A stretch of DNA of 56,310 bases from Spirogloea muscicola (taxonomy: Eukaryota > Streptophyta > Zygnematophyceae > Spirogloeales > Spirogloeaceae). This document shows, in pieces, positions 5,060 to 50,460 of this stretch (its first letter is position 1; each line of letters opens with the position of its first letter). The notes beneath the pieces are model-generated. The model saw only the letters and a program-made list of their open reading frames with translations. It did no database searches and had not been told where the DNA came from. The position numbers were made by a program, and so were the translations under genes. Location: positions 183,162 through 239,471 of the forward strand of contig WELB01000199.1 in NCBI GenBank assembly GCA_009602725.1, read 5' to 3'.

Positions 5060-5129
5060 CCCTTCGAACCGTTGTCAATTCTTTTGGGCTGGCTTTTCGC
5101 AGCCCTTGCCCCCATTGTGAGTGCCACTT
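5060..5129 (+). mobile_element. 70-bp LINE tail insertion with 10-bp TSD
   Basis: The insert runs from CCCTTCGAACC through the hairpin (GGGCTGGCTTTTCGCAGCCC) to GTGCCACTT. The 10-bp repeat CTTCTTTAGC lies at 5,050-5,059 and 5,130-5,139. The uninterrupted counterpart is near 52,010 in element X (CTTCTGTGGC). This tail type (type B) ends ATTGGGAGTGCCACTTCTT elsewhere. Confidence 0.85.
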
Positions 5130-5183
5130 CTTCTTTAGCGCCCACCTTCACGGTCTTGTGGGTGGTTGAGGTACCTTCAGATG

Positions 5184-5269
5184 AAGAAGGGCTCGCCCAT
5201 TGAGGATAGGGGCTGGAAAAGCCAGCCCAAAAGAATGAACAAAGTACGAGAAGGGGGCCAGAGGAAGCG
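5184..5269 (-). mobile_element. 86-bp LINE tail insertion with 9-bp TSD
   Basis: Read on minus it begins CGCTTCCTCTGGCCCCCTTC, continues through the hairpin and ends GGGCGAGCCCTTCTT, matching the last part of the LINE at 4,861-4,951. CTTCAGATG is repeated at 5,175-5,183 and 5,270-5,278. The empty site is in element X near 52,055 (GGTACCTTCAGATGGGCTTC). It is a textbook 5'-truncated copy of the neighbouring family. Confidence 0.9.
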
Positions 5270-5293
5270 CTTCAGATGGGCTTCCCTCGTTGC

Positions 5294-6270
5294 CGTAGCC
5301 CCACCCGGCTCCTTTCCATCAGCTCCCCGGGCGCGTCTGAGTGGCTGAACGCTCTGCCAATATACGAGTCCCTTCGGCTCCCAGACAACCTCTTCCGCGC
5401 AGCGCTCCACCACCACCTCGGCCTCCCCCCCCCCTTGCTTGGCTGGCATCCGCCAGTGCGAGTGTGGCCACATTGCCGATGACAAGCTCGCCTTAGCTGC
5501 GCACATGCTGAGGTGTGTTGAGGGGGGTGAGCGCATTGCCTCCCACGACTCTCAGGGATATTATGTTTGGAAATGTGCGAGAGGCTGGGTATCATCCGGC
5601 GCTGGAGGTGTCCGGCATCATGCCCATCTCTTCCAGGCGGGGCAAGCCCTACGTGCGCCGTCTGGACGTAAAGGCACTCCCCGGAACGGTGGGCCTCGTC
5701 TGCTCCTGGACGTGGTACTGATCGACGCATACAAGGCTGGCGCACCCACGTCAACCGTGTCTGGATGGGCCACGTCCAGCGCGGAGCGCAAGAAGAAAAG
5801 AGGAGTGGCACTACCAGGATTATCCCCGAGGGGACCATCTCTATCCGTGTGCCATATATATGTACGGAGGCTACGGGTAAAATGGTCCTCCCTGATCCAG
5901 CATCTGGCCCGGCTGGTTGATGCGCGTCGTCGAAGTCGCGGGGGCAGCTTGGGCCACTCCAGCATTCCGCAGGCCTTAGTTGCATAAAATAGAATGCGGC
6001 TCTCGCTTAGTCTGCAGCGCTCGCAAGCATTGGCTCTTCATCAACGTGCAGGGCGCGCTCTAAGTCAGGCCTCCGGCTTTCGCGGCGGCGCTCCAGCTCC
6101 CCAAGTTAGCTTGTCAGATTTGTTTATGCTCACACGTGGGTGCTGATGTCACCTTAGGTACCTTACATTAGGTCTCTGGATTATGTAGCCTTGTTCAGTC
6201 TGCACTAGACTCTGCCTGCAATGTATTGGCTTGAGTTGGCCTCCCTTTCACTTTCATGCGCCCTGCGCGC
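5294..6270 (+). mobile_element. LINE subfamily 2 copy, 977 bp, with 13-bp imperfect TSD
   Basis: The copy encodes the C-terminal region in broken frames: an ISSPGASEWLNALPIYE-like segment, CECGHIADD...HMLRC, RRLDV and LLLDVVLIDA. Its 3' end is GGCCTCCCTTTCACTTTCAT followed by GCGCCCTGCGCGC, unlike subfamily 1. CTTCCCTCGTTGC (5,281-5,293) and CTTCCCCCATTGC (6,271-6,283) flank it and differ at 2 of 13 bases. Element X has the uninterrupted sequence near 52,068. Confidence 0.85.
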
Positions 6271-6436
6271 CTTCCCCCATTGCGCTTCGAACGGTCTTCT
6301 GACGGTCGGCGTTATGCGTGGGCTTGGGCCCTTGTAGTCGCTCCGTTGTTGTAGTCCGCGTTTGATGAGCGGTCGAGGTTGTTGTTGTCGCCCGCATTTG
6401 ATGAGCGGTCGATGTCGTTGTTGTCGCCGAGAGAAG

Positions 6437-6520
6437 TGGCACTCCCAATGGGGGCAAGGGCTGCGCAAAGCCAGCCCAAAAAGAATTGACAAAGGTTCGG
6501 AGGGGACTCTCTCTCTCTCT
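6437..6520 (-). mobile_element. 84-bp LINE tail (type B) insertion with 10-bp TSD
   Basis: On plus it reads TGGCACTCCCAATGGGGGCA, a GGGCTGCGCAAAGCCAGCCC hairpin, then AATTGACAAAGGTTCG and a CT run. CCGAGAGAAG (6,427-6,436) and CCGAGAAAAG (6,521-6,530) flank it with one mismatch. Element X has the empty site near 52,212. Confidence 0.8.
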
Positions 6521-6660
6521 CCGAGAAAAGAGAGTCAGAGATGGGTGGTCCTCCATTGTTAGCGTGAATCACACACAAGTGTATGACCCAGCCTAGAAGC
6601 CACATAGGGAGAAAAGTGGTCCTCCATCCTTAGCGTGAATCACACACAAAAGTGGATGAC

Positions 6661-7060
6661 TCCTAGCACGACAGAGCTGATTACCTTGTTTAGGTCACAA
6701 GCAGGAAGAGGACACGGACATAAGGCAGCCACTTTACTGGATCATTATACTGTTTCGTCATGGCCTGCACCTCACAGCCACAGCCCCTTGACGGAGGGCC
6801 AAGTTTAGCAATCTATTAAATGTGCTCATGTTACACACGCTAGATGAAGCAATTAGTCACAGTAATTATCAGAAGTATTCGTCCGCGTTTCAAGTTGGGC
6901 AAGGGATCAGTGAACAACCACATCCAAGCCCATACTCTGCTTGAAAACATGATCTTGCAAAATGGTGCTCAATCAAGAGGGGCAGCGGCTCCAAATCGAA
7001 AGGTTTAGCAAAGGAATGGACAAGGTCTGAAGGAGCCAGACGGTAAGCAAGGTACTAAGT
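6661..7060. other. Intergenic sequence, nothing recognised
   Basis: AT-richer sequence without coding signatures. Its last 100 bases read on minus as a decayed LINE 3' UTR leading out of the fragment that starts at 7,082. Confidence 0.4.
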
Positions 7061-7081
7061 GCTAAGACGGCAGCAAGCGGA

Positions 7082-7376
7082 TTCTCAGTAATTGCAAATC
7101 GGAATAGCCAGCAGGCGGTAGACGTCGCCCTGACGGAAAGCGGAGGCCGCAGCCAAGAGATATTGCTCGCACATAGAAAAAAAGGCCAAAACCAGCCCAG
7201 AAAAGAATGGACAATATTGGCAGGCCACAAAGGCCACAAAACGGTGTCGAAAAAGAAGAAAACACACATCAGAAGCCAAGGTGCGGCCTGCACGCAAGTG
7301 GACAGCGAAGGCAAGGGACCGCTGCAGGGAAACGGCCAAGCGCATCCGGAAATCTTGAGCAAGAAAATGCAAGCGC
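7082..7376 (-). mobile_element. LINE subfamily 1 C-terminal fragment split by a tail insertion
   Basis: On minus the protein reads FRMRLAVSLQRS...AGRTLA, is interrupted, then resumes AASAFRQGDVYR. Removing the 116-bp insert at 7,158-7,273 joins the two halves in frame as RTLAAASAFRQGDV, which matches other copies. Confidence 0.8.
7158..7273 (-). mobile_element. 116-bp LINE tail nested in a LINE coding fragment, 7-bp TSD
   Basis: AGCCAAG is repeated at 7,151-7,157 and 7,274-7,280. On minus the insert contains TTGTCCATTCTTTTCTGGGC, the hairpin start and CTATGTGCGAGC. Exact removal restores the host LINE frame, which supports the boundaries. Confidence 0.85.
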
Positions 7377-7990
7377 GGCCAGATTGACTGGTGGCTGGGA
7401 GAGGCCAGCCCAAAAGGAACGAACAAGGTCTGAAGGAGCCGGAATGAAGGAGTAAGTGAATGAGTAAGAATGTGCTCGCCCATAGAGAAGAGTGGCTGGT
7501 GAAGGAGTAAGACATCAGCCAGGGGACTCTCAGTAACCTCTAGTCAGCAGATGCAAGTCTGAGTAGCTAGCCGGCAGAAAGACGTCACCCTGACGGAAGC
7601 CAGAGGCCGCCGCCAAAGCTCGGCCTGCGCGCAAGTGAACCGCGAATGCAAGGGACCGCTGCAAAAGAGTTTGCCAAACGCATCCTGAAGACCTGAGCAA
7701 GGGACCCGGCGGCCGAAGCCAGGCTGCTCGCTCTGCTGCCCTTGTCGGCGGGCCACTGCACGCCGCGCAAGGCGCTGCAGAAGGTCAAGCCAGCGAGTTC
7801 TAAAGGCCCCGTGTACGTCGACGGTGAGCGGGACGCACTCGTCCCCCACTGGGTGATCGGCTGGCGGGCTGCAGGGCCCGCCTCCTCCGACGAGCGTTGG
7901 GCGCTCCTGGAATTGACGCTGTTGGTGGTGACGACGTCGGCAATGAGCCGGGGCCCCCGGGCCCAGCGCGCTGGCGACGAGATCGGCACG
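7377..7990 (-). mobile_element. LINE subfamily 1 copy, C-terminal part and tail, decayed
   Basis: On minus: GPRLIADVVTTN (nuclease-like core), SLAQVFRMRLANS, then a frame-broken end near 7,545. A UTR and hairpin follow (GGGCTGGCCTCTCCCAGCC near 7,400). It contains the 44-bp insertion at 7,457-7,500. Confidence 0.75.
7457..7500 (-). mobile_element. 44-bp LINE tail insertion with 11-bp direct repeats
   Basis: GAAGGAGTAAG occurs at 7,446-7,456 and 7,501-7,511. The insert on minus carries only the 3' hairpin arm (CCAGCC), CTATGGGCGAGCACATTCTT and a few more bases. Confidence 0.75.
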
Positions 7991-8014
7991 CCGGGTGGGT
8001 TTTAGGGCCTCAAT

Positions 8015-8376
8015 GGGCGAGCCCCCTCCCTTTAGGGCTGGCTTGTCCAGCCCCTCTCCTCAATGGGCGAGCCCTTTCTGCACCTGCGTGCCGGCCGAGC
8101 CCTCGCTGCTGCCTCTGAAAGAAGGCTCGCCCATAGAGAAAGAAAGGCTCTGGCCAGGGGACGTCCTTCCAGGAACATATAGCCTCTCCGACCTGCGACT
8201 GCTTAGCAGGGGTTACTGAGTAGTTAGTAGCTACTTTGTTTCTTCTTGTGTGCTTCTTTCTTAGTGCTTCACCTTAGTGCTTCGCCTGGCCCCCTTCTTC
8301 TTGGGCTTCTTGTACTCTGCTCATTCTTTTTTGGGCTGGCTGTTCCAGCCCCTATCCTCAATGGGCGAGCTCTTTC
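8015..8376 (+). mobile_element. Stacked LINE tails and a subfamily 1 C-terminal end
   Basis: Two tails lie back to back (8,020-8,085), followed by coding for LRAGRALAAAS, interrupted by a 29-bp antisense tail piece (8,118-8,146). Coding then resumes and ends YSLSDLRLLSRGY at 8,219. The UTR and a complete hairpin tail end at 8,376. The UTR subtype matches 56,094-56,310. Confidence 0.8.
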
Positions 8377-8379
8377 TTG

Positions 8380-8610
8380 GTGGGAAGGCGGCCATCCGCC
8401 CCAGCTGTCAGGAGCATGATGCTGGAGTTTTCCAGCGACACCGTGTAATCGGCCTCCAGGAATGTGCCGTACATAGCATTGCGCGGCAGGTCGAGTGCCG
8501 GTCCGCTCCCCTCCCCGTGCACCGGAGCAATGGGACGCCAAATACGTCCCAGAATGAAAACAATTAATTTAATGACGCCACATCTGGACTGCGCTTTATG
8601 GCGCAATGGG
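8380..8610 (-). mobile_element. LINE coding fragment, antisense
   Basis: On minus it reads RNAMYGTFLEADYTVSLENS, the stretch between the zinc motif and the nuclease-like core in other copies (RDVMHGILLEAGFSVAAEHS at 3 kb). It abuts a 20-bp plus-strand tail piece near 8,604. Confidence 0.65.
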
Positions 8611-8624
8611 CGAGCACTTTCTTT

Positions 8625-10200
8625 CTATGGCCGAAAGCGCTGTCTCCCCGCACTCACACTGCTGTACACCACGGAGGCAGGGTGGATCAGTAAGTAGTAT
8701 ACACCTTTCCCAGGTGTGAGCTATCTTTCCTTTTGAACTATCTCTGTATACATGCTTTTACTCTTTCTTTGCTTGTGCCTCTTCCAAGAAGGGGTGAGTG
8801 AAAGATGAAATGCTCTTAAGCGCTTCTGCATTGTCTGCATTGAGCGAACTTATCGTATCCAACCTTGTCTTCACTTGTATCGGATCATTTGATCAACTTA
8901 AGGATTCAGACCTACTCTACCACTTCTGAATACATATTTTAACTCCGGTATTTTCATGTTCCTTCTCCCTTTAGCAACACCCATAGGCGTTAGCCACTCG
9001 TTGAGTTGGAGCTGCGCTTGCATTTTTATCTCAGATCCGGGTGCAATACAACAAAATTGTCCATATATCGAACCACCGCGAGCCGACTTCTCCGGGCCAC
9101 TTTGTTTGTACTTGTTCCACCTCAACTTCTGCTTGTTTTAGAGGCATGTTAGACTCTGCTTCTTACCTTTCTTAAAGACGTGAGTTATTCAGAACACGCT
9201 GAGGAAGACCCACGGGTTGTCGTGTTTGTGCAGCTTGCTGACATTGTTGTCGTATTTGCATGAGCGTTCATTGACTCCTTCAATGAACCATCAATGAAAT
9301 TGCTGTTCCATTAGAGCGAATAAGCTTGTGATTTGTTGCAACTTCAAATCACTGCAAGAATGTCATTGTGTAAGGGAACTGCTAGGAGTAGCAGCGTCTG
9401 TCTTCAGCAGCAATAAAGCATCATTGCTGATGACACTGTTTGTGAGCATAAATTGATGTTGTCTAAGTGCAATATTCATGTATGATTGAGAAGTGGAGCT
9501 CTGTATTGGAATCTCGATTCATGTATGATTGAGAAGTGGAGCTCTGTATTGGAATCTCGAGACAGCAGGCACACACCTCATTTCGTACAGTGTCTTCTTT
9601 ACACCATGAATCAGCGGTACAAATCTGTTACTGCCTATCTCCGATGATGTAAATGAATGGAACAAGTAGCAGAGGTTGTCAAAGCGCCTGCCTGTCAAGC
9701 TGGAGATCACAAGCCTGTTCCTTCGTGCTTTGTGGGGTGGTGATGCTGGCATGCAAGGCAGAGGTGCCTGACAATGACTTGTGTTCTGCAACTTGCACAT
9801 GGAATGTGCTTCTCAGTCGCGAGCCTGAGATGCATGTGATATACAAAGCCTAGACCATAAGGAGCTTCCGGCAAGCCTCTAAATCTGCCGCATGAGTCCG
9901 ACTAGCAGGAGCAGCCCAAGTATCTGGCAGCTGTGCTTCCTACGCCGAGAACATGGCCACCCAAACAACTGCTGGCCGGCGGCATGACCATTCGCCTGCG
10001 CTTCTTCTTGTTTGCTAGCCTGCGAGCAATGACAGGCAATTTCCTGCATTAAGTGTGAAGGACATGCATGATTAAGCTGGCAGACTGGAGATTCCTATGA
10101 GATGTTGTACATGTGCAACGACCACATGCCCACTGGAGTGCCTACTAGCTGATAACACGAAAAGCAGAGCAGTTGTCAAGCCTGCAGATGCATGATTAAA
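8625..10200. other. Intergenic, AT-richer, with one tandem duplication
   Basis: No LINE coding signature and no gene that I can recognise. The only structured feature is the 43-bp tandem duplication at 9,475-9,560. The right end may contain 3' untranslated sequence of the DDT-domain gene. Confidence 0.4.
9475..9560. repeat. 43-bp perfect tandem duplication
   Basis: The unit from TTCATGTATGATTGAGAAGT to GGAATCTCGA occurs at 9,475-9,517 and 9,518-9,560 without differences, which suggests a recent local duplication. Confidence 0.95.
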
Positions 10201-10204
10201 CATG

Positions 10205-12815: not shown

Positions 12816-12829
12816 TCGGCTCCTCGTCC

Positions 12830-13180: not shown

Positions 13181-13194
13181 CGGACCTTGTCCAT

Positions 13195-20190: not shown

Positions 20191-20198
20191 CGACCATT

Positions 20199-20355
20199 TG
20201 TCAATTCTTTTCGGGCTGGCTTTTCACTTTGTTCATTCTTTCTTGGGCTGGGTTTAGGGTTTAGGGTTCAAGGGTTTAGGGTTTATCCCCAGTGGGCGAG
20301 CCCTTCCCCTTTTCACAGCCCTTGCCCCCATTGGGAGAGCCACTTATCTTCTGTT
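20199..20355 (+). mobile_element. Type B LINE tail carrying a nested type A tail
   Basis: The outer tail starts TGTCAATTCTTTTCGGGCTG and resumes after the insert as AGCCCTTGCCCCCATTGGGA then GAGCCACTT. The inner 81-bp tail (20,228-20,308) is bounded by CTTTTCAC at 20,220-20,227 and 20,309-20,316. Confidence 0.85.
20252..20286 (+). repeat. Short interstitial TTTAGGG telomere-type array
   Basis: Five near-perfect units (GTTTAGGGTTTAGGG, a variant TTCAAGGG, then TTTAGGGTTTA) take the place of the loop and right hairpin arm of the inner tail. TCCCCAGTGGGCGAGCCCTT follows. TTTAGGG is the plant and many-algae telomere repeat. Confidence 0.9.
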
Positions 20356-20470: not shown

Positions 20471-20509
20471 GGCCTGCCTACCAATGCCCACATACGCGTG
20501 AGCCTGGGA

Positions 20510-20537
20510 AGAAGAAGAAGTGGCACTCCCAAACCTG
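20510..20537 (-). mobile_element. 28-bp type B tail insertion with 7-bp TSD
   Basis: CCTGGGA occurs at 20,503-20,509 and 20,538-20,544. The insert is AGAAGAAGAAGTGGCACTCC plus CAAACCTG. Its minus-strand reading ends GGGAGTGCCACTTCTTCTTC, the last 20 or so bases of the type B tail without any hairpin. Confidence 0.75.
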
Positions 20538-22163: not shown

Positions 22164-22255
22164 AAGAAGGCTCGCCTATAAAGAAAGAGGGGCTGGCAAA
22201 GCCAGCCCAAAAAGAATGGACGATGTCCAAAGCCGAAGAATGAGAAGCCGAGGAC
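22164..22255 (-). mobile_element. 92-bp LINE tail insertion with 18-bp perfect TSD
   Basis: GGTAATGAGCTGGCTAAG is repeated exactly at 22,146-22,163 and 22,256-22,273. The homologous site without insert is at about 28,467-28,484. The insert has AAGAAGGCTCGCCTATAAAG, the hairpin GGCTGGCAAAGCCAGCC and AAAGAATGGACGATGTCC. Confidence 0.9.
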
Positions 22256-24576: not shown

Positions 24577-27500
24577 GCTCACCGCAGCGGACCCGCTGAT
24601 TGGGGCCGCCGCCGCCGCCGTCGTCGGGATCCCCTGTGTTAGCGACGATAGCCGTGGCGGCGGGGACCAAGGGCTCCTCACCTCGAAGCGCCCGCCATTG
24701 CTGCAGCTCGAAGCACCGCAGACGCTGGCGGAGCTGCTGCGCCAGCAGCACGAGCAGCGCCGCCGGCTTCAGCCCCTTGAGGTGCGAAAGCCAGGCGTGA
24801 TGGCGCATGCAGACCATCACAGAACTTGGCCAGCTTCGCCAGGCTTGCTTGGTCAGGCATTTTCCGCAGCAAGCACCGGTTGCTGAGGTTGCGGCGCTAA
24901 CCACCGAGAGGGCTGTCCATCGTCTTGTGGCTTGCCGCAGCTGCTGCAGATGAAGCTTTTCGTGCAGAAGGCGGTGCAGCTGCAGGCTGAGGTGCACTGC
25001 AAGCACCTGCAGAACATGATCGATCAGCGACAGCCGGCTGCGAGCTCGGTGCTCGCCTCCAGCAGAGCTGCTAGCGGCTGCAGCTCTCTGATGGTGGGGG
25101 GCACGACGCAGGCAGGCCTGCTGGACGGCCGTGACAGAAGCAGCGGCGGCGCCGGCATTGGTGGCGCTGGCGGCGGCGTCAACAGCAGGGAGGGAAGCAC
25201 TGTTGTGGCCGCGGCACCAGCGGAAGTGGAACCACCTGGGGCCGCCGACACTGCTGCCAAGGCGAGCTCGTGTAGCGGCGGCGGCGGCGGTGGTGGCCAT
25301 GGAGGCGCGCGCTACAGGGTGGCCACTGGAAGAGGTCCACCAATGCCGCAACCTTCAGAACAGCCACTCCCCTCGGAGCTGAGCCAGGTGATGGAGCGGC
25401 TGGCCGTTGCACATGGACACTCGTGGAGCTTCCGGGTGGTGCGTGAAGTTGTGAGGCCCCACGCGGCAGCGGTGCTGGCAGAGGTCACTGTCGGTGCCGC
25501 GACCCGCCAGCAGTGGGGAGCTGCTGAAGCTGCGGCAGTGGCGGCAGGAGAAGGCGGCGACGACATCGGCATTGTTCTGCTGCCAGCTGCAACGGCACAG
25601 GCCCTGGCGAATGCTGCGCTGCTGTTCCTCCCCTCTGCCGGGTTACCGGCGTTTGTGGCTGTGAAGCAGCCAGCTGTCGTTCCTCACAGCAGCGCAGTGC
25701 AGAAGGAAGCGGCGGTGGATACGGCGGCGTTGTCGGTGGCGGCGACGGCGGCGGCGGCATCAGCCATGCAGGACGGCAAAGAGCAAGCTTCGCCAACCTG
25801 CGCAGCTCCTTCTACTTTGACATTTGGTTGTTCTTCGCCGACGCTCGGCGTCAATGATGTCAACAGCATGGCACAGCTCAATGGTGCAAGTGCCAGGCTC
25901 AGTCCTCGCGACCCTATGGAGGGGGCGGCAACGCACCTGCCGCCCCCGGCATTGCTGCCAACAGCGTTGGCCACGACAAGCTCTGGTGGCCAGCTGGCAG
26001 GCAGCATTGACCTGAGGTCGTCAGCAGCAGAAACTCAAGCACTAGAGCCCATGCCCGCCTCAGCAGACCCCTTGCTGGACGCTCCGACGACGGCGGCTGG
26101 GCTGCCCGTGCAACCTCCACTGCCACCGGGAAGCTCAAGCTCCGGAGGGGCCTCAGTCCTCATCCCAGGGCCGCGCCTGTCGTCATCATCTCCGTCAGTC
26201 CAGAATCCCCAGCTCGTCTGCGAGCTGCCAAGCAATATGTCTCTCCTGCCTACTGGTCCTCGTGGGTCAGCCACGCATGCTCTTGACACCAACACTGGGA
26301 GCAAGTTATCGTCTAGCAGCTCATTGACCACTGCACGGTCCCCTGCTTCAGGTCCTTCCAGTACACCTGGACTGAAGGTAAGTCACCCCTCTTTTGTTGC
26401 CCTCTGGATGTTATTATGGCTTTATATCATCTCAGCAAGCTCTGGCATGTCAGTAAGATTCATTGTTCAGCGGTTCTTGGTGTACCAGTACTGAGTTTGC
26501 TAAAGCTGTACAGGAGCGGCAGTCCTGTGTGTTTCTAAGATGAATCTTGCCTATGCCAAGGAGTCAAGGTTGGGAAGCAACAGTGACTGGTCACATAGGT
26601 GAAGATTGAGAGTTGCCTGATGAGGGCTTTGTATGTGACTTTGAGAAAGGTGCAGGTTTTGGTCACTAGCGACGGACCTGACAGTGTCAGGAATGTCGAA
26701 CACGCACTGGACAAGTACTACTTTGACGTACCTGAACTGGGCATTGCACAGTGAGGACTAAGCTGGATACATTGAATCCAGCTCTAGTTGATAGCTTCTT
26801 CTGAAATACCTGGGCCTCTGCGACGTGGTGTCAGGCTGCAAATAATTCGATGTGCAATTCTCAATACTGTAGTGTAATCCTTCTGCATTTTGACTCCATC
26901 ACATTCCAGTCCATGTTATTCCATTGTTTTAGTTCTACTTCAAATATGTGTGACAACTGCAGTTTATTGACGACTGACATGTATTTGGCTGTACTTCAGT
27001 GACAGAGTGGAGTATGAGGTGATGGCATGGGCAAACATGATCCACAAACTTCTTGAGGGAGAGAAAATTGACGCCCTTCTTCTTCATGAAAGGTGGAGTG
27101 ATGATGAACTACTCGTAGATTCATCTCTGCTAAGCCTTGTGCCCTGCTGTCACCTGGGCCGCGTACGAAGCCAGTGCTATGATCATCTGACTCGTCGGCA
27201 ATGTCAGCAAGATCATTAGTCAGTGGCTTCATGGACAGCCAGATGGTAACTTTCTGCTTGCATTCTCATGTGAAGGTTCCAAGTCATAAATGGCTCCAAC
27301 ACGTGCCAGCTGGTTCGACAATACGAACTGGAGCACAACCTGCCGGAGATGCCCATCATTGGCATCTCCGCAAAAGTGAAGCGTGCTGACCTGGTAATGA
27401 TGGCTTTTCCTAGCACCACAGGGCCATGCGTTTGGTTGGTGTCAGCATCTCCGTGAGCATGAGTTGTGGCGCCAAGATAGGTTCTAGTCCCATGAGCCTG

Positions 27501-33686: not shown

Positions 33687-36600
33687 ATGGCCGGCGGTGG
33701 CGACCGAGACGAGGCATCGGCAATCGGCATGGACATCCTCACGGCCCCGGCGGTCGCCGCATCGGACCCGTTGATTGGGGCCGCCACCACTGTCGGGCTG
33801 GTGGAGCTCCAGCGCCAGCAGCACGAGCAGCACCAACGGCTTGAGTACCTTGAGGTACGACAGCCAGGCGCGACGGCGCATGCAGGCTATCACAGTAACC
33901 TGGCCAGCTTCGCCAGGCTTGGCTGGTCAGGCGTTTGCCCGTTCAAGCACCTGTCGCTGAGGTTGGGCGGCTGACCACCGTGAGGGCTGTCCGTCTTCCT
34001 GTGGCTTGCAGTGGTGAGCTAGGCACCTTCAAAACATGATCAATCAGCAACAGGTGGCTGCGAGCTCGGCGCTCACCTCCAGCAGAGCTGCTGGCGGCTG
34101 CAGGTGGTAGTGTTTGGCAAGACGCATGCACGCCTGCTGGATGGCTGTGGCAGAAGCAGCAACAGCGCCAGCATCGGCGGCGCTGACGGCAGCGTCAAGG
34201 GCAGGGAAGAAAGCACTGTTGTGGCCGCGGCACCAGTGGGAACGGAGATACCGGCGTCAGCATCAGCAATGAGCATGACAGACGTGCTCACGGCACCAGC
34301 ACTTGACACGGCAGACGTACCACCTGGGGCCGCCGACACTGCTGCCAAAGCGAGCTCGTGTAGCAACGTCGGCGGCGCTGGTGGCCATGGAGGCGGGCGC
34401 TACGGGGTGGCCACTGGAAGAGGTCCAACATTGCTGCAGCCACTTCCCTCGGAGCTGAGCCAGGTGATGGACCGCCTGGCCCTGGCGCATGGAGACTTGT
34501 GGAGCTTCCGAGTGGTGCGTGAGATTGTGAGGCCCCGTGCGGCAGCGGTGCTGGCAGAGGTCACCGTCGGTGCCGCGACCCGCCAGCAGTGGGGAGCTGC
34601 CGAAGCTGCGGCAGTGGCGGCAGGAGAGGGCGGCGACGACATCGGCGTTGTGCTGCTGCCGGCTGCAACGGCACAGGCCCTGGCGAACGCAGCGCTGCTG
34701 TTCCTCCCCTCTGCCGGGCTGTCGGCGGTTGAGGCTGTGAAGCAGCCAGCTGCCGCTCCTCACAGCAGCGCAGCGCATAAAGATGCGGTGGTGGAGACGG
34801 CAGCGTTGCCGGCGGCGGAGGTGGCGGCGACGGCAGCCATGGAGGACCGCAAAGAGCAAGCTTCGCCGACCTGCGAGGCTCCTTCCAGATTGACGGTTGG
34901 TTGTCTTTCGCCGACACCGGTCGTCAATGATGTCAAGCACATGGCACAGCTGAATGTTGCAAGATTCGGCGGATTCAGTCCTATCGACCCAAGAAAGGGG
35001 TGGTTATGGCACCCAACAATGAAGAATGGGTTGCTGCCAACGGCGGTAGCCATGATGAGCTCTGGCGGCCAGCTTGCTGGCAGCATTGGCCTGAGGTTGT
35101 CAGCTGCAGAAGCCCAAGCCCAGGGGCCCATGCCCGCCTCAGCAGACCACTTGCTGGACGCTCCGACCACGGCCGCTGGGCTGCCCTTGCAACCTCCACT
35201 GCCACCGGGAAGCTCAAGCTCCGGAGGGTCCTCAGTCCTCGTCCCAGGGCCGTGCCTGTCGCCATCATCTCCGGCAGTCCAGAATCCCCAGCTCGTCTGC
35301 GAGCTGCCAAGCGATTCGTCTCTCCTGCCTACTATTCCTCTCGCATCGTCAAGGCATGCTCCCAATACCAACACTGATGGCAAGTTTTTGTCTAGCAGCT
35401 CAATGACCACTGCACAGTCCCCTGCTCTAGGTACTTCCAGGACACGTGGACCGAAGGTAAGTCACCCCTCTTTCGTTGCCCTCTGGATATTGTCATGGTT
35501 TCATGTCTCCTCTAGCAAGCTCTGGCATGTCAATATAGATGATTTGTTGAGCGATCCTCAGTGATAGCAATATTACGTCTAGCGTAAGTTGTACAGAAGC
35601 GGCAGTCCTGGTGTATATCCAAGATATCTCTTGCCTATGCCAAGGAGTCAAATTTGGGAAGCAACATTGACTGGTCATGTAGGTAAAGACTTAGACTTGC
35701 CTGAGAAGAGCTTTGTACGTGACTTTGTGAGCCTGTGCAGGCCTTGGTCCTTGGCGACAACTCTGTCAATCTCAGGATTGTCAAGCATGCACTTCACAAG
35801 TACTATCTTGAAGCACCTCAACTGGGCATTCCTCAGTGAGTTGTAAGCTGGATACATTTATTCCAGCTTTAGTTGAGAGCCTCTCCAAAGTATCTGGCCG
35901 CTGCGATGTGGTATCGGGCTGCAACATGTTTGACTTGCAACGCTCAGAATTGCAGTGCGATCCTCTTGTATTTTGATTGCATCCCATTCCATTTCATGTC
36001 ATTCCATCGTTTGGGTAGCTTCTTCAAACATGTGTGACAACTGCAATTTCTCATCGACGATTGACATATATTCGGCTGTAATTTGGTGACAGGATTGAAT
36101 TTGAGGTGGTAACAGGGGCAGACCTGATCTGCAAAATTCTTGAGGGACTAGAAAAGATTGACGCCCTTCTTCTCGATGAAAGGTGGAGTGATGATGAACT
36201 AATCAGAGATTTATCTCTGCTATGCCTTATGCTATGACTATGTTACCTGGGCCGCATATGAAGCCAGTGCAATGATCATGTGACCTGTTGGCAGTGTCAG
36301 CAACATCAATATCAAAAGCTTTGTGGATAGCCAGATGGTAATCTTCTGCTTGCATACTCGTGTGAAGGTTCAAAGCCATAGATGGCTCCAACACGTGCCA
36401 GCTGGTTCGACAACACGAAGTGGATCGCAACTTGCCAGAAATGCCCATCATTGGCATTTCCGCAAATGTTAAGCGTGCTGACCTGGTAATGTTGACTGTT
36501 TCCGGCACCATGGGGCCCATGCATTTGTTGGTGTCAGCATCTCCGTGAGCATGAATTGTGGCGCCCAGATAGCTTGCGGTCCCATGAGCTTGTCACGTAC

Positions 36601-37335: not shown

Positions 37336-37341
37336 TCTCAG

Positions 37342-37536: not shown

Positions 37537-37539
37537 TAG

Positions 37540-38403: not shown

Positions 38404-41400
38404 ATGGCCGGCGGTGGCGACCGAGACGAGGCATCGGCAACCGGCACGAATATGCTCAGCGCACCGGCGTTCGCCGCAGTGGACCCGTTGATTGGGGCCG
38501 CCACCACTGCCGGGCTGGTGGAGCTCCAGCGCCAGCAGCACGAGCAGCACCAGCGGCCTGAGCAGCTCGAGGTACGAAAGCCAGGCGTGTCTCAGTCAGT
38601 CAGTCAGTCTCGCATGCAGGCTCTCACAGCACTTGGCCAGCTTCGCCAGCCTCGCTTCGTCAGGCGTCCAAGCACCTGTTGCCGACGTTGGGCCACTGAC
38701 CACCGTGAGGGCTGTCCATCCTCTTGTGGCTTGCCGTTGCTGCAGCTGCAGCTGCAGCTTCGTGAGCAGATGACGCTGCAGCTGCAGAAGGCGGCGCAAC
38801 GCAATACATGCAACCTGCAGTACATGATCGATCAGCAAGAGCTGGCTGCGAGCTCTGCGCTCGCCTCCAGCAGAGCTGCTGGCGGCCGCAACGCTCTGAT
38901 GGTGGGGGGCAAGGCGCAGGCAGACCTGCTGGATGGCCGTGGCACAAGCAGCAGCGGCGCCAGCATCGGCGGCGCTGGCGACGGCGTCAAGAGCAGGGAG
39001 GCTGTGGCACCAGCGGAGACGGAGCCACCAGTGGCCGCCAACACTGCTGCCAAGGCGAGCTCGTGTAGCAACGTCGGCGGCGCTGGTGACCATGGAGGCG
39101 GGCGCTACGGGGTGGCCACTGGAAGAGGTCCTCCAGTGCTGCAGCCACTGCCCTCGGAGCTGAGCCAGGTGATGGAGCGGCTGGCCCTCGAGCATGGAAA
39201 CTCGTGGAGCTTCCGAGTGCTGCGTGAAGTTGTAAGGCCCCGCTCGGCTGCGGTGCCGGCAGAGGTCACCGTCGGCGCCGTGACCCGCCAGCATTGGGGA
39301 GCTGCCAAGGCTGTGGCAGTTGCGGCAGGAGAGGGCGGCGGCGACATCGGCATCGTGCTGCTGCCGGCCGCAACGGCACAGGCCCTGGCGAACGCCGCGC
39401 TGCTCTTCCTCCCCTCTGCCGAGTTGCCGGCGGTTGAGGCTGTGAAGCAGCCAGCTGTCGTTCCTCGCAGCAGCAAAGTGCAGAAGAAAGCGGCAGCGGA
39501 GGTGGCGGCGGCATGGGAGGCGGCAGTGGTGGCAGTGGCGGCAGGGGCGGCATCCATGCAGGACGGCGAAGAGCAAGCTTCGCCGACCTCTGCCGAGTTG
39601 CCATCGGCGGCGGCGCCAGCGACGGCGGCATCCATGCAGGACGGCAAAGAGCAAGCTTCGCCGACCCGTGGCTCCTTCCGATTTGACAATCCCTTGTTCT
39701 TCGCCGGAAATCGTCGTCCAGGATGTCAACAGCCTGGCACAGCTCGATGCTCCACGTGCCGGTTACAATCCTCGCCACCTAAGGGAGGTGGCGGCAATGC
39801 ATTGGCATCCGCCGACGGCCGTCGTCCAGGTTGCCAACAGCATGGCACAGCTCTATACTCCAAGTGCCGATTACATTACTCATCACCTAAGGGAGGCGGC
39901 GGCAATGCGCCTGGCGCATGCGGCCTATCTGCCGACGGTGGTGGCCAAGACGAGCTCTGGCGGCCAGCTTGCTGGCAGCATTGGCCTGAGGTTGTCAGCA
40001 GCAGAAGCTCAAGCACAGGGGCCCATGCCCGCCTCAGCAGACCCCTTGCTGGACGCTTCGACGACGGCGGCTGGGCTGCCCTTGCAACCTCTACTGCCAA
40101 GCTTAAGCTTCGGAAGCTTAAGCTCCGGAGGGTCCTCAGGCCTCGTCCCAGCGCCGTGCCTGTCGCCATCATCTCCATCAGTCCAGGATAACCCCCAGCC
40201 CGAGCTGCCAAGCGATGTGTCTCTCCTGCCTACTGGTCATCTTGCGTCGTCAAGTAATGCTCCCAACACCAACACAGGGAGCAAGTTATCGTCTAGCACC
40301 TCATTAACCACTGCACAGTCCCCCGCGTCAGGTCCTTCGAGAACACGTACACTGAAGGTAAGTCACCCCTCTTTCTTTGTCCTCTGCATGTTGTCATGGT
40401 CCCATGTCTCCTCAGCAAGCTCTGGCATGTTAGTATGGATTCATTGTTCATTGGTTCTTGGCGTACAAGTTTTGACTTAGCTGAACAGAAGCGGCAGTCC
40501 TGTGTGTTTCAAGATGAATCTTGCCTATGCCAAGGAGTCAAGATTGGGAAGCAACAGTGTGTGGTCACATGCTTGAAGATTGAGACTTGCCTGATGAGGG
40601 TTTTGTGCGTGACTTTGAGAGCTTGTGCAGATTTTGGTCACCAGCGATGGACCTGACAATGTCAGGGATGTCGAGCATGCACTTGACAAGTACTGTCTTG
40701 ACGCACCTCAACTGGGCAATGCACAGTGAGAACTAAGCTGGATGCATTTGAATCCAGCTTTTGTGATAGCTTCTTCAAAGACATCTGGCCGCTGCGATGT
40801 GGTGTCAGGCTGCAACATTTGACTGGCAGTTCTTGCTGTGCAATGCCCTTGTATTCTGATACCATCTTATTCCATCCCATGTCGTTTCATTGTTTGGGTA
40901 TCCACTTCAGATACCTGTGACAACTGCAGTTTCTTGTTGACGACTGAAATGTATTCGGCTGTACTTTGGTGACAGAGTTGAGTTTGAGGTTGTAGCATGG
41001 GCAGACGTGATATGTAAAATCCTTAGGGGAGAGAAGATTGGCGCCCTTCTTCTTGATGAAAGGTTTGTGCTAGGATGAAGTGATCCATCTCTGCTATGCC
41101 TGGTGCTGTCCAAGTTACCTGGGCCGCATAAAAAGCCAGTGCTATGATTATGTGACTCGTTGGCAGTGTCAGCAACACAGATATTAAAGCTTCATGGACA
41201 GCCAGATGGTAACTTTCTGGCTGCATCCTCGTGTGAAGGCTGAAAGCCAAGACTGGCTTCTACACGTGCCAGCTGGTTCGGCAATACGAAGTGGATCACA
41301 ACTGCCCACAGATGCCCATCATTGGCATCTCCGCAACTGTGAAGCGTGCTGACCTGGTAATGATGGCTGTTTCAGCACCACGGGGGCCATGCGTTTGGTT

Positions 41401-43030: not shown

Positions 43031-43184
43031 TGCTCAATGTAGCCCACGTCCACATTGTAAGGACGAATGCCGGGCTTGGACCACAGGATGGAGCGTACCC
43101 AAAAGCCGTCTTCATTTACTGGGGCCGCTCGCCCAAGTACGAATGTTTGTCAGGCGGTGTCAGGCCGCCGGGAGAGGCGCGCGC

Positions 43185-43440: not shown

Positions 43441-43520
43441 CGTCAGACGTCGATCCAATCCCGGGGGAGGGGGGTAAATCGGCCTCTCGCCTGGTCGGGC
43501 TTGCCGGGGAGCCGATCATC

Positions 43521-43543
43521 AGAAGAAGGGCTCGCCCATTGAG
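43521..43543 (-). mobile_element. 23-bp LINE tail insertion with 7-bp TSD
   Basis: GATCATC flanks it at 43,514-43,520 and 43,544-43,550. The insert read on minus is CTCAATGGGCGAGCCCTTCT plus TCT, the very end of the type A tail with no hairpin. It lies 210 bp upstream of the ATG at 43,753. Confidence 0.75.
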
Positions 43544-43752
43544 GATCATCCCTCCCTCCTCCCCCTTCCCTGCATGCATGCCCCAGGGCCCCCGAGCTTG
43601 CCGACGACGCCGCCGCCGTCGCCAGCGCCGCCGCAGCCAGCGCCGCCGCCGCGCCGCCGCCGCCGACGACGAGGACGGCGCGGTCGTCGGCGAGCCCAGC
43701 CAGCGCCGGTCGCCGAGCCAAGCGCTGATCGCGAGCCGGCACCAGCCCCGCC

Positions 43753-45168: not shown

Positions 45169-45540
45169 CACCACCGACTTCCTATAATGTTCACGTCCTG
45201 CCTGCCACGGTCCCACATGGCTCGACAGGCCAAGGGCGATGGCATGAACACTCCCAACCCTCAAAACCTCCATTATCGCTGTCCATCGTTGTCCATCTTA
45301 TGATCGCAAGGGAACTATGCATGCAGCGGGAGCACTCGTCCGTCAATGGGTGCAACCAGTCAGGGCGGTGGCCAGCTTGCCAGCTGCCAGCTCGCTTGGC
45401 GGCCAGCTTGCTTGTCTTTGCCACCCTTGCATTTCAGCTTATCTGCCTCAGCTCATCTGATTCCTACTGCTGACACGGGGTAACTATTCAAGAGCGCCCT
45501 GTCTGCCTAGCCTGTGGCTCCGTTATGAACACCTGTATGC
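45169..45540. other. Downstream of the 471-residue gene
   Basis: Part of it (45,235-45,440: CTTGTCTTTGCCACC, GCCAGCTTGCCAGCTGCCAG, GACGGTGGCC-like words) recurs in reverse at 53,280-53,480, so it is a dispersed repeat. No coding evidence. Confidence 0.5.
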
Positions 45541-45549
45541 ATCTGGCTG

Positions 45550-46062
45550 GCTTTTACAGCCGCTCTTTGAATTTCAGTAGCGGCATTCTTTACAGTTCAT
45601 GCGCACTGCGCGCCTTCTCTCTCTCTTTTGGCTGGGCTCTCGCAGCCATTGCCTTACACTGGCAGAGCTGTTACTCTTTGCCAGCTTGCATCCACATCTC
45701 TGAGTCAGTCGGAATAGTAAAAGACTTTTCCACTAGAGGGCGATTGCTGTGATCGGCCAGCCAAGGAAATAGAATAAACAAGGCTCGGAAGGGGCCCGAA
45801 GATTGCTGAAGCACACAGCGACCAAAGTGGCCACTGATGCTTATTATCAGAAAAGTAAACGGCTCTTCCAATATGACGGCAGTGACTGTGAGAGGACAGC
45901 ACAAAGAAATGAAAAAGTTTCGTGTATTTGAAACAAACAAAGGCCAAATGGCCAAGTACATAGGCAAGCACATCTAAACACGTATATCACCTACAGCACG
46001 TTGACCCGCTCAGTAAGCGCTGGTCAATACATAAAGGACAGCCCATAGGAATGGACAAGGTC
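45550..46062. mobile_element. LINE subfamily 2 tail (plus) next to subfamily 3 UTR (minus)
   Basis: Plus: TTCATGCGCACTGCGCGCCT then TCTCTCTC, GGCTGGGCTCTCGCAGCC, CTTTGCCAGCTTGCATCCAC (45,597-45,705). Minus from 46,060 to about 45,725: UTR words shared with 30,480-30,690, then GGCTGGCCGATCACAGC and an ACTTTTCC end. Confidence 0.7.
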
Positions 46063-46139
46063 CGAAAGAGCTGGATGGCGCAAAAGCAGGATACTAGTCG
46101 CTAAGACGTCAGCAAGTGGGGGTCTCAGTAACCTCTAGA

Positions 46140-46384
46140 CAACTAGTGCAAGTCAGGATTAGTAGAGGGCGTAAAAGCGTCGCCGCGACGGAACCCGGAG
46201 GCAGCAGCGAAGGCGCAGCCTGCACGCAAGTGGACGGCCAAGATTAAGGACCTCTGCAGGGAGACCGCCAGGCACATCCTGTACACTTGAGCAAGCGACG
46301 ACCCGGCGGCATTGAAGCCCGGCTGCTCGCTCTGCTGACCTTGGCGGCAGGACACTGCACGCCTCGCAAAGCGCTGTATCTGAA
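46140..46384 (-). mobile_element. LINE subfamily 1 C-terminal end that cuts off receiver copy D
   Basis: On minus: SLAQVYRMCLAVSLQRSLIL, AVHLRAGCAFAAASGFRRGD. It ends near 46,140 and starts at about 46,384, exactly where homology of copy D to the other receiver introns stops. Confidence 0.7.
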
Positions 46385-47845
46385 GTAGCTACCAAAATAA
46401 TGGAACGACATGGAATGGAATGGGATGGAATCAAAAGACAAGAGGATTGCACTACGCTTTTGAGAATCGCAAGTCGAACACGCTGCAGCCTGACACCACA
46501 TTGCAGCGGCCAGAAATCTTTGAAGAAGCTAAAGTGTAAAGCTGGATGTAAGTATCCACCTTACTGTGCAAAGTTGAGGTGCGTCAAGACAGTACTTGTC
46601 CAGTGCATCCAAGACATCCCTGACATTGTCAGGTCCGTTGCTAACGACCAAACCTGCACAAGCTCTCAAAGTCAAGTACAAAGCTCTCATCATGCAAGTC
46701 TCAAGCTTCACCTATGTGACCAGACAATGTTGCTTCCCAATCTTGACTCCTTAGCGTAGGCGAAATATATCATCAAATCACACAGGACTGGCGCTTCTGT
46801 ACAACTTCGGCTAATTTCAACATTGATATCACTGAGGATCGCTGAACAATAACCATACTGACATGCCAAAGCTTGCTAGAGGAGATGCAAAAGCATGACA
46901 ACATCCAGAGGGCAACGAAACAGGGGTGACTTACCTTCAGTCCACACGTACTGGAAGGACCTGAAGCAGGGGACCGTGCAGTGGTCAATGAGCTGCTAGA
47001 CGATAACTTGCTCCCAGTGTTGGTGTCAAGAGCATGCGTGGCTGACCCACGAGGACCAGTAGGCAGGAGAGACATATTGCTTGGCAGCTCGCAGACGAGC
47101 TGGGGATTCTGGACTGACAGAGATGATGACGACAGGCGCGGCCCTGGGATGAGGACTGAGGCCCCTCCGGAGCTTGAGCTTCCCGGTGGCAGTGGAGGTT
47201 GCACGGGCAGCCCAGCCGCCGTCGTCGGAGCGTCCAGCAAGGGGTCTGCTGAGGCGGGCATGGGCCCCTGTCCTTGAGCTTCTGCTGCTGACGACCTCAG
47301 GCTGATGCTGCCAGCAACCTGGCCGCCAGAGCTCGTCTTGGCCACCGTTGTCGGCAGCAATGCCGCATGCGCCGGGTACGTTGCCGCCGCCTCCCTTAAG
47401 TGACGAGGAATGTAATTGGCACTTGGAGTATTGAGCTCTGTCATGCTGTTGACATCATGGACGACAACGGTCGGCAAAGACCAACGGATTGTAAAATTGG
47501 TAGGAGCCACGCAGGTCTGCGAAGCTTGCTCTTTACCGTCCTGCATGGCTATCGCCGCTGCCATCCCCGCAGCAGCCGCCAACTCCAATGCCGCTGCCGC
47601 CGCCACTGCCACTTCCTTCCGCACTGCGCTGCAGTGAGAAACGGCAGCTGGCTGCTTCACAACATCAACCGCCGACAACCCGGCAGAGGGGAGGAACAGC
47701 AGCGCTGCATTTGCTAGGGCCTGTGCCGTTGCATCGGGCAGCAGCACAACGCCGATGTTGTCGCCACCCTCTCCTGACACCCCTGCCGCCACTGCCGCAG
47801 CTTCGGCAGCTCCCCACTGCTGGCGGGTCGCATCACCAACATCCC
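46385..47845 (-). pseudogene. Receiver-family copy D, truncated at both ends
   Basis: On minus, homology begins at TRQQWGAAEAAAVAAG (47,845) and runs to the donor at 46,935 (CTGAAG then GTAAGTC). Over the last 120 codons it is nearly identical to gene A. The second receiver exon is recognisable at 46,565-46,653 (VSNGPDNVRDVLDALDKYCL), but it lost one base at the start and five near its end. Intron homology stops at 46,385, and the exons for beta-3 to beta-5 are gone. Confidence 0.7.
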
Positions 47846-47859
47846 ATTGGGCCCAGGAC

Positions 47860-49290
47860 TTGGCATCCTCGCCCATGGCGGAGCCGCCAGAACCGGCAGC
47901 AGCCCTAGCAGCGTGCACTCTGGGACATGGTCAACTGGCAGTCTGTTAGCCATCTTCTGAGCTATAGTGGCAGCGCTGCGGAGGCAGCATGGGTGGAGTC
48001 CTCACAATTCAAAAGGCGGGCCGCCAGGCTGTTGCACGCTGCCGCCGTCACCACCAGCCGAGCTCAGAGGCAGCATGCCCGCCGGGTCCACCATCTCCTG
48101 CGTGAGCCGGGGGAGATGTGGCGTTCTTTTGTACTGGCAAACAAATGAGAGAACACAAGTCTCCGTGTTCCTGCAAGGATCGCCACAGGGCCGCCATTCG
48201 GTTAAGAAGTGCTGCTTGCAAGACAACCAGGCAATCACTGCCAGCCTGCACTGCGTTCCGTGTGGCTTGCCAAGCTGCCATGCCGGCTGTGGCAGGCCGG
48301 CAAGACAGCGGCTGCTGCGGTGGGGTGAGGGCCGACTGCCAATGCTGACTTCTAGGAGGGACTTGATGTGGTCGATTGGGGGGCCCTGGGCGCCCATGAC
48401 CCTTCAAACGCCCTCTGGCGTCGCACCTGACAGTAGCCCGGCGGCGGCAGGGGTGAGCGTCGTGCACCAGACGGCAGGGGGCGTGTCAGGGCGGCAGCGA
48501 GGGAAGCACCAGGCAGGCGGGCTCACAGTCGAGGCCGCCGAGTGAGTACACCGCATCAGTGAAACGACGGCCCAGCTTCATTAACAACCGCACAGCATTG
48601 CGTTGTCCAGACGGGAGCCGGCCGCCACCACCTTGCTCAAATGGCCACAGTCGTGCATAATGCAGTTTGGCACCACCACAGCCGCTGCCGCTCACCACCG
48701 CCGGGGGACTGTTGTTTTGTACGTCGTGGAACCCATGGCTTGGCTGCAGCCCTCCGCTTGGCTGCCCGACCGTATTTGCCTCATGCATGGGCTGTGTCGC
48801 ACCACCGGCAGCCATTGCGCAGCCAGGGGGTGAGCTGAGCCCTCAGCATTGCCGTGAAGCAGCACTGAAGGCGACAACGAGCGCGAGTTGGCGTGAGGCT
48901 GGAGGCAGACAAGTGCAGAGGCCACTGCTGGAGTCTCACCGGGGGCGCCGCTGAGAGTGCGCTCAGCGCTGCTGCACGCTGCCGGCGCCGGCTGCCAGGA
49001 CTCGTCAAGGACGGCACCGTTGAGGTCTTCAGAGGCCGCCGCCTTGTCCGCGCTTCCGTCAGCGCCGTGCTCCCTGAGCCATCCCCCGTGGCCGTCGCTA
49101 TCGGCGGCGGCGGTGGCGGCGAGGCCGGGCTGGAAGCTGGCCAGCGCCGCTTGGCTCGGCGGCAGCTCGGCGGGCGCCGGAGGAGGAGGAGGCTGCACTG
49201 GGCCGCGCATCACCGACGTCCATCACGCCGTCTCGGTCGCCACCGCCGCCCGTTCTGGCGTCGCCACCGGCTTGGCCTCGTTGGGGTGGA
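47860..49290 (-). other. GC-rich region with possible minus-strand coding, unassigned
   Basis: At 49,215-49,290 the minus strand carries the same module as the starts of copies B and C (GGCCAAGCCGG, GGCGGTGGCGACCGAGACG). Between, minus-strand stretches look coding in parts (VRLLMKLGRRFTDAVYSLGG near 48,580; MAAWQATRNAVQAGSDCLVV near 48,270) but frames change and splice sites are unclear. It could be the diverged 5' half of copy D or a separate gene. I cannot decide. Confidence 0.35.
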
Positions 49291-49297
49291 CTTGGGA

Positions 49298-49660
49298 AGA
49301 AGTGGCACTCCCACCAATGGGGGCAAGGGCTGCAAAAAGCCAGCCCAAAAAAGAATTGACAAAGAAAGAAAGAAGAAAGTGCTCGCCCATTGAGAATAGG
49401 GGCTGGAATAACCAGCCCGAAAAAGAATGAACAGAGTACGAGAAGGGGGCCAGGGGAAGCGCTAAGTAACAGAAACAAAGCTGCTACGAGACTCAGTAAC
49501 CCCTGCTAAGCAGCCGCAGATCAGAGATGCTGGGCTCCTGGAAGTGGGTCCCCTGGCCAGAGCCAGAGGCAGCAGCGAGGGCTCTGCCGGCACGAAGGTG
49601 CACAAAGAAAGGGCTCGCCCATTGAGAATTGACAAAGGTTCGAAGGGGCCGAAAAAGCAT
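49298..49660 (-). mobile_element. Three-level nest of LINE tails
   Basis: Outer: a type B tail (49,298-49,364, continuing after 49,638). Inside it: a 19-bp tail piece, now split as 49,365-49,368 plus 49,612-49,626, between two copies of AATTGACAAAG (49,354-49,364 and 49,627-49,637). Inside that: a 233-bp LINE end (49,369-49,601) between ACAAAGAAAG at 49,359-49,368 and 49,602-49,611. Confidence 0.8.
49369..49601 (-). mobile_element. 233-bp LINE subfamily 1 copy, nearly identical to the 3-kb copy
   Basis: On minus it starts CACGAAGG-complement within LHLRAGRALAAASGSGQG, passes SISDLRLLSRGY-stop and ends with the complete tail. Against 4,722-4,951 I count a two-base gap (GAGTCTC for GAGTGTCTC) and one substitution in the loop (GGTTATTCC for GGTTGTTCC). 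Confidence 0.9.
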
Positions 49661-49739
49661 TGAGCAGCTACAAAGGGGTCTGAAGATGCTGTGGTAGAGC
49701 AGGGGGAGGATCGATCACTCAGTAGTTACGAGTGAAGAG

Positions 49740-50460
49740 CCTCGGATCCGACAGACTAGCTGCCGGAAAACTATCCCCCAAGGGAAGGCTGGGAAGGCTG
49801 CCGTCAGTCGACCCCTCGCTATCAGCGTCCACGGGGCCTTCGGCGCTCGGTGGCTCGAGCTGCCGGCATCAGCTCGCGCGCAACACAGTCTCCCGACGGT
49901 CTAAAAGTAAGCAGGCCAACGGCGACGCGGCAGGCTCTCTAGGCTCCCCTTCCATCTCTGATCTGCGGCTGCTTAGCAGGGGTTACTGAGTGTCTCGTAG
50001 CAGCTTTGTTTCTGTTACTTAGCGCTTCCCCTGGCCCCCTTCTCGTACTCTGTTCATTCTTTTTCGGGCTGGTTGTTCCAGCCCCTATTCTCAATGGGCG
50101 AGCACTTTCTTCCAGGCGCCTAGCCTCTCTGATCTGCGGCTGCTTAGCAGGGGTTACTCAGTGATTCGTAGCAGCTATGCTTCATTTTGTGCTTGCTTTC
50201 CTTAGCGCCTCCCCTGGCCCCCTACTCGTACTTTGTTCATTCTTTTTAGGGCTGGCTTGTCCAGCCCCTCTCCTCAATGGGCGAGCCCTTTCTCTAGCCG
50301 AGGTGTACCGCATGCGCCTGTCAGTACTCCTGGAGCGGTCAATGGCACACGCGCTTCATCTGCGTCCTGGTCGTGCTTCGACTGCAGCCTCTGGCTGTAG
50401 TCAGGGGACCCGCCACCCGGAGACTAGCTTCTCCGACCTGCGGCTGCTTAACAGGGGAAC
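49740..50460 (+). mobile_element. LINE subfamily 1 end interrupted by two tandem LINE ends
   Basis: The host LINE reads GDAAGSL up to 49,942 and resumes at 50,298 as AEVYRMRLSVLLERSMAHAL, LHLRPGRASTAASG, TSFSDLRLLNRG. The 348-bp insert (49,943-50,290) is bounded by TCTCTAG at 49,936-49,942 and 50,291-50,297. It holds two successive LINE ends, each with SDLRLLSRGY, UTR and tail (tails end at about 50,111 and 50,290). The first is identical to 4,801-4,951. Confidence 0.85.

Follow-up and report, generated by a model that had tools for sequence, protein, structure and literature searches.

The window, the whole 56,310-nucleotide stretch of Spirogloea muscicola DNA analysed here (GenBank assembly GCA_009602725.1, contig WELB01000199.1, positions 183,162 to 239,471 of the forward strand), carries a truncated copy of a long interspersed nuclear element (LINE) together with a series of short pieces of LINE 3′ tail, which were sorted into type A, its variant A2 and type B. 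We conclude that these pieces are very likely ordinary LINE insertions, produced by target-primed reverse transcription that usually stopped early. An initial annotation of the sequence had listed 12 of them with the lengths of insert and duplication; 11 of these pairs were reproduced at the lengths given, whereas the one at 49,365 (19-bp insert, 11-bp duplication) was not found as written. The copies in the window are:

3,003–4,951, forward strand: 5′-truncated LINE copy of lineage A1, C-terminal part of the open reading frame (ORF) plus 3′ tail; 100% identity over 1,949 bp to the full-length copy L141 (C254).
5,060–5,129, forward strand: 70-bp type-B tail copy; 10-bp duplication CTTCTTTAGC.
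5,184–5,269, reverse strand: 86-bp type-A tail copy; 9-bp duplication (CTTCAGATG on the forward strand).
6,437–6,520, reverse strand: 84-bp type-B tail copy; 10-bp duplication with one mismatch.
7,158–7,273, reverse strand: 116-bp degenerate type-A2 tail copy; 7-bp duplication (weak).
7,457–7,500, reverse strand: 44-bp type-A2 copy; 11-bp duplication (alternatively 29 bp with a 14-bp duplication, one mismatch).
8,009–8,030, forward strand: 22-bp type-A copy inside a second type-A tail copy, absent from the initial list; duplication TTTAGGGC.
20,228–20,308, forward strand: 81-bp type-A-like copy inside the hairpin of a type-B tail; duplication CTTTTCAC.
20,510–20,537, reverse strand: 28-bp type-B fragment; 7-bp duplication (one-base shift possible).
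22,164–22,255, reverse strand: 92-bp type-A2-like copy; 18-bp perfect duplication.
43,521–43,543, reverse strand: 23-bp type-A copy; 7-bp duplication.
49,369–49,601, reverse strand: 233-bp type-A1 copy within the tail of an earlier 17-bp copy; 10-bp duplication ACAAAGAAAG.
49,608–49,624, reverse strand: 17-bp type-A copy (CAATGGGCGAGCCCTTT on the reverse strand) in a type-B LINE; 13-bp duplication CTTTGTCAATTCT, limits within a few bases either way.
49,943–50,290, forward strand: composite of two tandem type-A copies (cores at 50,091 and 50,274); one 7-bp duplication around both (348-bp insert).

The ORF lying over the longest copy (2,835–4,829) matched the Pfam reverse transcriptase model RVT_1 at E 6e-6, below the curated cut-off. 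The 116-bp copy at 7,158 is supported by its 7 duplicated bases and nothing further, and the copy at 7,457 can be read in two ways because the target is locally repetitive. The insert at 20,510 includes 6 non-tail bases, as read from the sequence. For the site at 20,228, the uninterrupted type-B hairpin stretch has 4 matches in the loci collected; within the inserted copy, the hairpin is mostly swapped for TTTAGGG-like (telomere-type) repeats. At the split copy near 49,365, excising the 233-bp copy and one 10-bp duplication leaves a 17-bp insert with a 13-bp duplication, a gain of 30 bases that the 19/11 reading also describes. The uninterrupted type-B LINE stretch at this site has 15 matches in the loci collected, some of them overlapping, and 39 other near-identical 233-bp matches to the inner copy were found among 40 candidates scored. 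The order of events is an older 17-bp copy, then the 233-bp copy into its tail.

The tails are abundant beyond the window. In the 153-Mb genome, exact matches number 3,843 for the type-A core CCTCAATGGGCGAGC and 1,468 for the type-B core CATTGGGAGTGCCACTT, against 1 and 0, respectively, for the reversed controls. Copies are dispersed over many places and flanks, both in this search and in the list of 54 supported copies described below. Flanks were read in 86 merged regions surrounding the 100 first-listed type-A places (80 + 6 regions), in 60 merged regions surrounding the first 64 type-B places, minus one at a contig edge, in three full-length elements and in the window. The window and the three elements aside, the sampled places came from contigs C1 to C3 and were not drawn at random. 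The copies analysed were the 236 distinct ones with enough flank (143 type A, 25 variant A2 and 68 type B); in total 236 tails and 28 later regions were read.

For each copy the homology break was defined as the point where blastn likeness to other copies ends, and a repeat was sought between this break and the sequence following the tail, with downstream flanks swapped between copies as the control. Duplications with a score of at least 7 were found at the break of 59 of the 236 copies, compared to 8.7 expected from swapped flanks, and 22 copies reached a score of at least 10 (1.3 expected), confirming that flanking repeats are commoner than chance. Very short copies behaved in the same way: a score of at least 7 was reached by 23 of the 91 copies whose break lies within 60 bases of the core end (3.4 expected), namely 12 of 43 below 30 bases (2.2 expected) and 11 of 48 from 30 to 60 bases (1.2 expected). 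An earlier version of the analysis, using 100 exact type-A cores from the first 80 regions and the window, had given 25/100 with a duplication versus 2.1%. A scan not anchored to the break returned a slight excess (29 versus 16.4 expected at a score of at least 8) because the flanks are full of LINE pieces; being swamped by matches within LINE sequence, it was replaced by the break-anchored test. A stricter compilation retains 54 copies whose duplications are individually supported (score of at least 7 by selection) and whose inserts measure 22–335 bp; about 15% of these copies may be false, as estimated from the group totals.

Empty sites provided further support. The same flanks lacking the insert were sought in the collected loci, excluding self matches, for the 175 copies with a break below 130 bases. 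Candidate paralogous empty sites were obtained for 19 of these, about 14 being convincing by eye. Clear cases include an approximately 23-base tail within a type-B body (L091), copies of 31 bases on the minus strand and 49 bases on the plus strand of L003, and a 42-base insert with CTTCAGG doubled (L123). By eye, L014 and L044 (another tail within the ‘empty’ stretch), L016 and L023 (25-base overlaps in repetitive sequence) and L073:1460 were doubtful. A candidate empty site for the 6,437 copy at window position 52,219, with flanks 85–88% identical, failed the stricter filter. Taken together, the short inserts are real insertions, though duplications are seen in a minority of copies. The absence of the upstream duplication in part of the copies might suggest that longer copies lost their 5′ parts afterwards, and some may indeed have been shortened later. 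However, such deletions would remove the upstream duplication or separate it from the insert, whereas in the supported copies the duplication abuts the short insert and the empty sites match. Later deletion is already contradicted for duplication-flanked copies, and as a general explanation we regard it as barely credible.

Three long copies of the LINE share about 4.1 kb at 99.85–99.95% identity and begin at the same 5′ position. Two of the three have a complete 3′ tail; in the nearly full-length copy L143 (C165), unlike the other two, the final tail bases are missing. Their ORF runs to 1,348 to 1,357 residues from stop to stop, or about 1,300 from the first shared ATG, and matches RVT_1 at E 8e-16. 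Among solved structures, the only matches to the reverse transcriptase at E ≤ 0.1 were three R2 sequences (PDB 9nl3, 9dou and 9nl2; E 7e-7 to 1e-6, and by profile 1e-7 to 1e-6 plus two cytochromes near E 0.3), indicating a predicted R2-like enzyme, with the likeness judged among solved structures. N-terminal C2H2 models scored below the cut-off (E 0.1–0.4), the finger aligns weakly to R2, and two fingers are visible by eye. A C-terminal CxC..HxxxC (CCHC-like) motif is seen in lineage A, the type-B pieces ending short of that region, and a C-terminal RVDLVA..DVVTTD motif is kept in both lineages, changes in L119 excepted. We take these two motifs to mark the restriction-like endonuclease (RLE; PD-(D/E)xK) type, an assumption confirmed by no search; no APE domain appeared among the Pfam hits of the ORF. 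The reverse transcriptase segment recurs at 99–100% identity and without stops in 17 other places (residues 54 to 662 or more; 67 candidates scored), and the family is therefore young.

The type-B tail ends a related lineage, in which L105, L101 and L103 show 61–67% identity to the protein end; this likeness stops about 115–130 bases ahead of the type-B core. The hairpin stem is kept in both lineages, and covariation across 110 tails showed no excess (706 paired cells versus 705.1 in shuffles, standard deviation 1.5). Tails A and B end two lineages of one young LINE group of about 4.1 kb with an R2-like reverse transcriptase. The view that the tail pieces derive from LINE 3′ ends and were inserted with target duplications is borne out by the duplications, by the empty sites and by the same tails ending LINEs.

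Lengths were then considered. In 100 type-A copies the distance from break to core end had a median of 94.5 bases, with 0.5–0.8 starts per base from 15 to 90 bases and a fall thereafter; over all copies the medians were 75 (A, n=143), 33 (A2, n=25) and 88.5 (B, n=68). The per-base drop-off was 0.005–0.016 up to 450 bases for type A and 0.004–0.018 up to 300 bases for type B, beyond which 4 copies were left. Exact matches to 18-mers of one young subfamily numbered 1,174, 685, 187 and 24 at about 38, 100, 320 and 4,070 bases from the core end, corresponding to drop-offs of about 0.9%, 0.6% and 0.06% per base over successive intervals; these values are rough, as exact words are also lost by mutation and the first word misses one loop variant. 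The 18-mer nearest the 3′ end (1,853 matches) spans more than one subfamily and was excluded from these figures. In the 100 type-A copies, no excess drop-off was seen at the hairpin (0.53–0.67 starts per base from 15 to 75 bases and 0.8 at 75–90). The smooth spectrum and its short medians in types A and B uphold the proposal that this LINE family stops extremely early.

The alternative raised in the initial annotation was that the tail now behaves as a short mobile unit of its own, which in the manner of a short interspersed nuclear element (SINE) would be transcribed alone and moved by the LINE protein. Such a unit would account for the disparity between the many tail copies (3,843 cores) and the few full-length LINEs (24 matches to the 5′-end 18-mer). 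Also, type-A starts pile up mildly, the largest cluster being 10 in 3 nt at 67–69 bases (p 0.04); type B has none (p 0.95). However, no separate short length class was present in A or B, lengths running smoothly into the longer copies. Among the copies read there is no common start of the kind that defines a SINE 5′ end (promoters were not searched for): starts fall in both coding sequence and 3′ untranslated region, and two lineages with different tails have the same spectrum. A SINE-like unit is therefore very improbable. Four tiny copies (L009, L006, L052 and L061) have starts that almost coincide (TATCCTCAATGGG), each following CTT-rich sequence, and this near-shared start may be junction microhomology.

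Truncation extends into the core itself. Among 45 unselected tail 15-mers (22 from the core search, 3 from the loci collected and 20 newly read), 3 were cut off inside the core, which fits the same drop-off rate. An earlier length-floor test had found 1/101 and 1/159 type-A tails and 5/50 type-B tails cut inside the core; it was biased, as most loci had been chosen for having a core, and at least 1 of the 5 type-B cases is an internal variant. It had also been argued that, since some copies lack the hairpin, no more than the last 20 bases have to reach the target. This does not follow: the RNA at the start of the reaction may have been complete and carried the hairpin, and copies without a hairpin are uninformative on RNA needs because their 5′ end was lost during or after complementary DNA (cDNA) synthesis.

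The targets share a sequence bias. The first duplicated base is C or T in 46 of the 54 supported copies, and T occupies positions 2, 3 and 4 in 27, 30 and 28 of 54, against a background T frequency of 0.20; this start resembles the CTTTCTTC end of the LINE itself. Within 35 bases upstream of the break, another tail core lay in the same orientation in 26 of the 236 copies and in the opposite orientation in none, while random 38-mers of the same loci had a core on either strand in 5.1%. Read by eye, 19 of the 26 neighbour pairs are tail behind tail, and in the remaining 7 another copy's body is involved. Within the type-B LINE body, TTTGTAGCTGCT has a tail just upstream in 9 of 78 occurrences (e.g. 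L091:597-625, L118 on the minus strand at about 598, and L065:522), counted with up to one mismatch, including some in lineage A and with two of the nine being one locus twice (L065 and L111). This site is a possible hot spot for type-A insertion.

An alternative source of the tandem tails could be template jumping in a single reaction, with no second insertion. All 26 neighbours having the same orientation accords with jumping, as does the single duplication flanking the two-tail composite at 49,943, but tail-like targets also predict the same orientation, and the 233-bp copy at 49,369, which lies in the tail of an older copy, is flanked by a 10-bp duplication of its own. On balance, we consider template jumping the less likely source of the tandem tails.

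From the observed anatomy, duplications, empty sites, length spectrum, target bias and orientation bias, we infer a mechanism in which target priming, the cause of the stop and the order of second-strand events are the interpreted parts. The young R2-like LINE would nick one DNA strand, preferring targets like its own tail (YTTY), and reverse transcription would be primed at the nick on the CTTTCTTC end of the RNA, helped by the likeness between RNA end and target. The length at which the cDNA stops would be almost memoryless over the first few hundred bases, at roughly 1% per base, and stopping would be far rarer further up. The second strand would then be cut, mostly 7–15 bases away in the supported cases, and gap filling would leave the target duplicated on both sides of the available cDNA, even one as short as about 17–23 bases. 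An existing genomic tail would be a suitable target, so that later copies would accumulate behind earlier ones, all in the same orientation.

Several observations weigh against this account. Clear duplications are wanting in most copies, 149 of 236 scoring below 5 near the break; the candidate empty site for the copy at window position 8,125 reveals an insert without any duplication; and none of the 3 core-truncated 15-mer copies has a clear one. The mild type-A pile-up at 67–69 bases is a further such point, and is perhaps due to junction microhomology. Further, the endonuclease type is unconfirmed, as the C-terminal part has no PDB match and both fold models were poor (predicted local distance difference test scores of 42 and 35). 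The copies lacking a duplication, at 8,125 and among the core-truncated set, are what would be expected if DNA breaks were repaired using fragments of LINE cDNA or RNA, with no part played by the element's endonuclease. Yet duplications that mostly span 7–15 bases and open with YTTY are consistent with a staggered cut that has a sequence bias, and all counted inserts end at the true 3′ tail, though they were searched for that way. We consider such repair filler improbable, and favour target-primed insertion with early stopping.

Elsewhere in the window, four ORFs share long stretches by eye (24,932–26,494, 34,104–35,564 and 38,404–40,191 on the forward strand and 46,773–47,918 on the reverse strand) and would encode a repeated protein; the two scanned, at 24,932 and 38,404, had no Pfam match at E 0.01. 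Adjacent reverse-strand ORFs at 54,060–56,223 matched LRR_4 (E 4e-6) and an F-box-like model (E 4e-5, just below the cut-off), and may together form a single host F-box/LRR gene.

For LINEs, early stopping and 5′ truncation are long established. The portion of the Anolis study available to us (PMC5389967) describes many CR1 insertions below 50 bp as ‘severely truncated’ and reports clade differences in processivity. As in the present LINE, truncation of the Anolis CR1 and L2 elements grows towards the 3′ end and complete copies are few, although by the domains found here they belong to a different LINE group; in Anolis R4, by contrast, 41% of insertions are complete according to the same excerpt, compared to 24 matches of the 5′-end word against 1,174 of the tail word here. 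R2, like the present LINE, has a single ORF with an R2-like reverse transcriptase, and 5′ truncations with microhomology have been described for it (PMC2718515, accessible part). However, R2 proper occupies one site in 28S ribosomal DNA, whereas the present LINE has dispersed insertions with variable duplications. RLE LINEs are mostly target-specific, with HERO often an exception (PMC4640811, in the text available); compared by description, this clade of RLE-type LINEs includes many non-specific families (same partial source). RTE elements with simple-repeat tails leave truncated 3′ ends between 6–12 bp duplications, and Ag-JAMMIN-2 is cited as having five intact and about 1,940 truncated copies (both from the available portion of PMC2887409). 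RTE is another clade, and a tail-on-tail bias is not described in that portion (PMC2887409). We found no description of the present LINE family in the literature searched, in which coverage of subscription papers was limited. What is added here is a dispersed R2-like family whose truncation is documented, by duplications and empty sites, down to about 17–23 bases, together with tails stacked in one orientation.

Studies of LINE truncation usually draw on copies of a length that repeat finders can detect, and the shortest class is easily missed. In this family inserts of 17–50 bases are readable because the 3′ tail is distinctive, and the chance of stopping is therefore measurable from nearly the first bases. 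More tentatively, target-primed insertion may have no visible lower length limit, second-strand cutting and joining being completed with 17 or 4,000 bases of cDNA alike; the fragments might then serve as fresh landing pads, because their tail resembles the preferred target, and oriented tail stacks might fill the genome and seed one another without coding for anything. If the early-stopping account is right, it would suggest that reverse-transcriptase processivity is uncoupled from second-strand completion, and that a single active LINE group can scatter numerous tiny insertions through a genome, where they might otherwise be taken for unexplained small indels.

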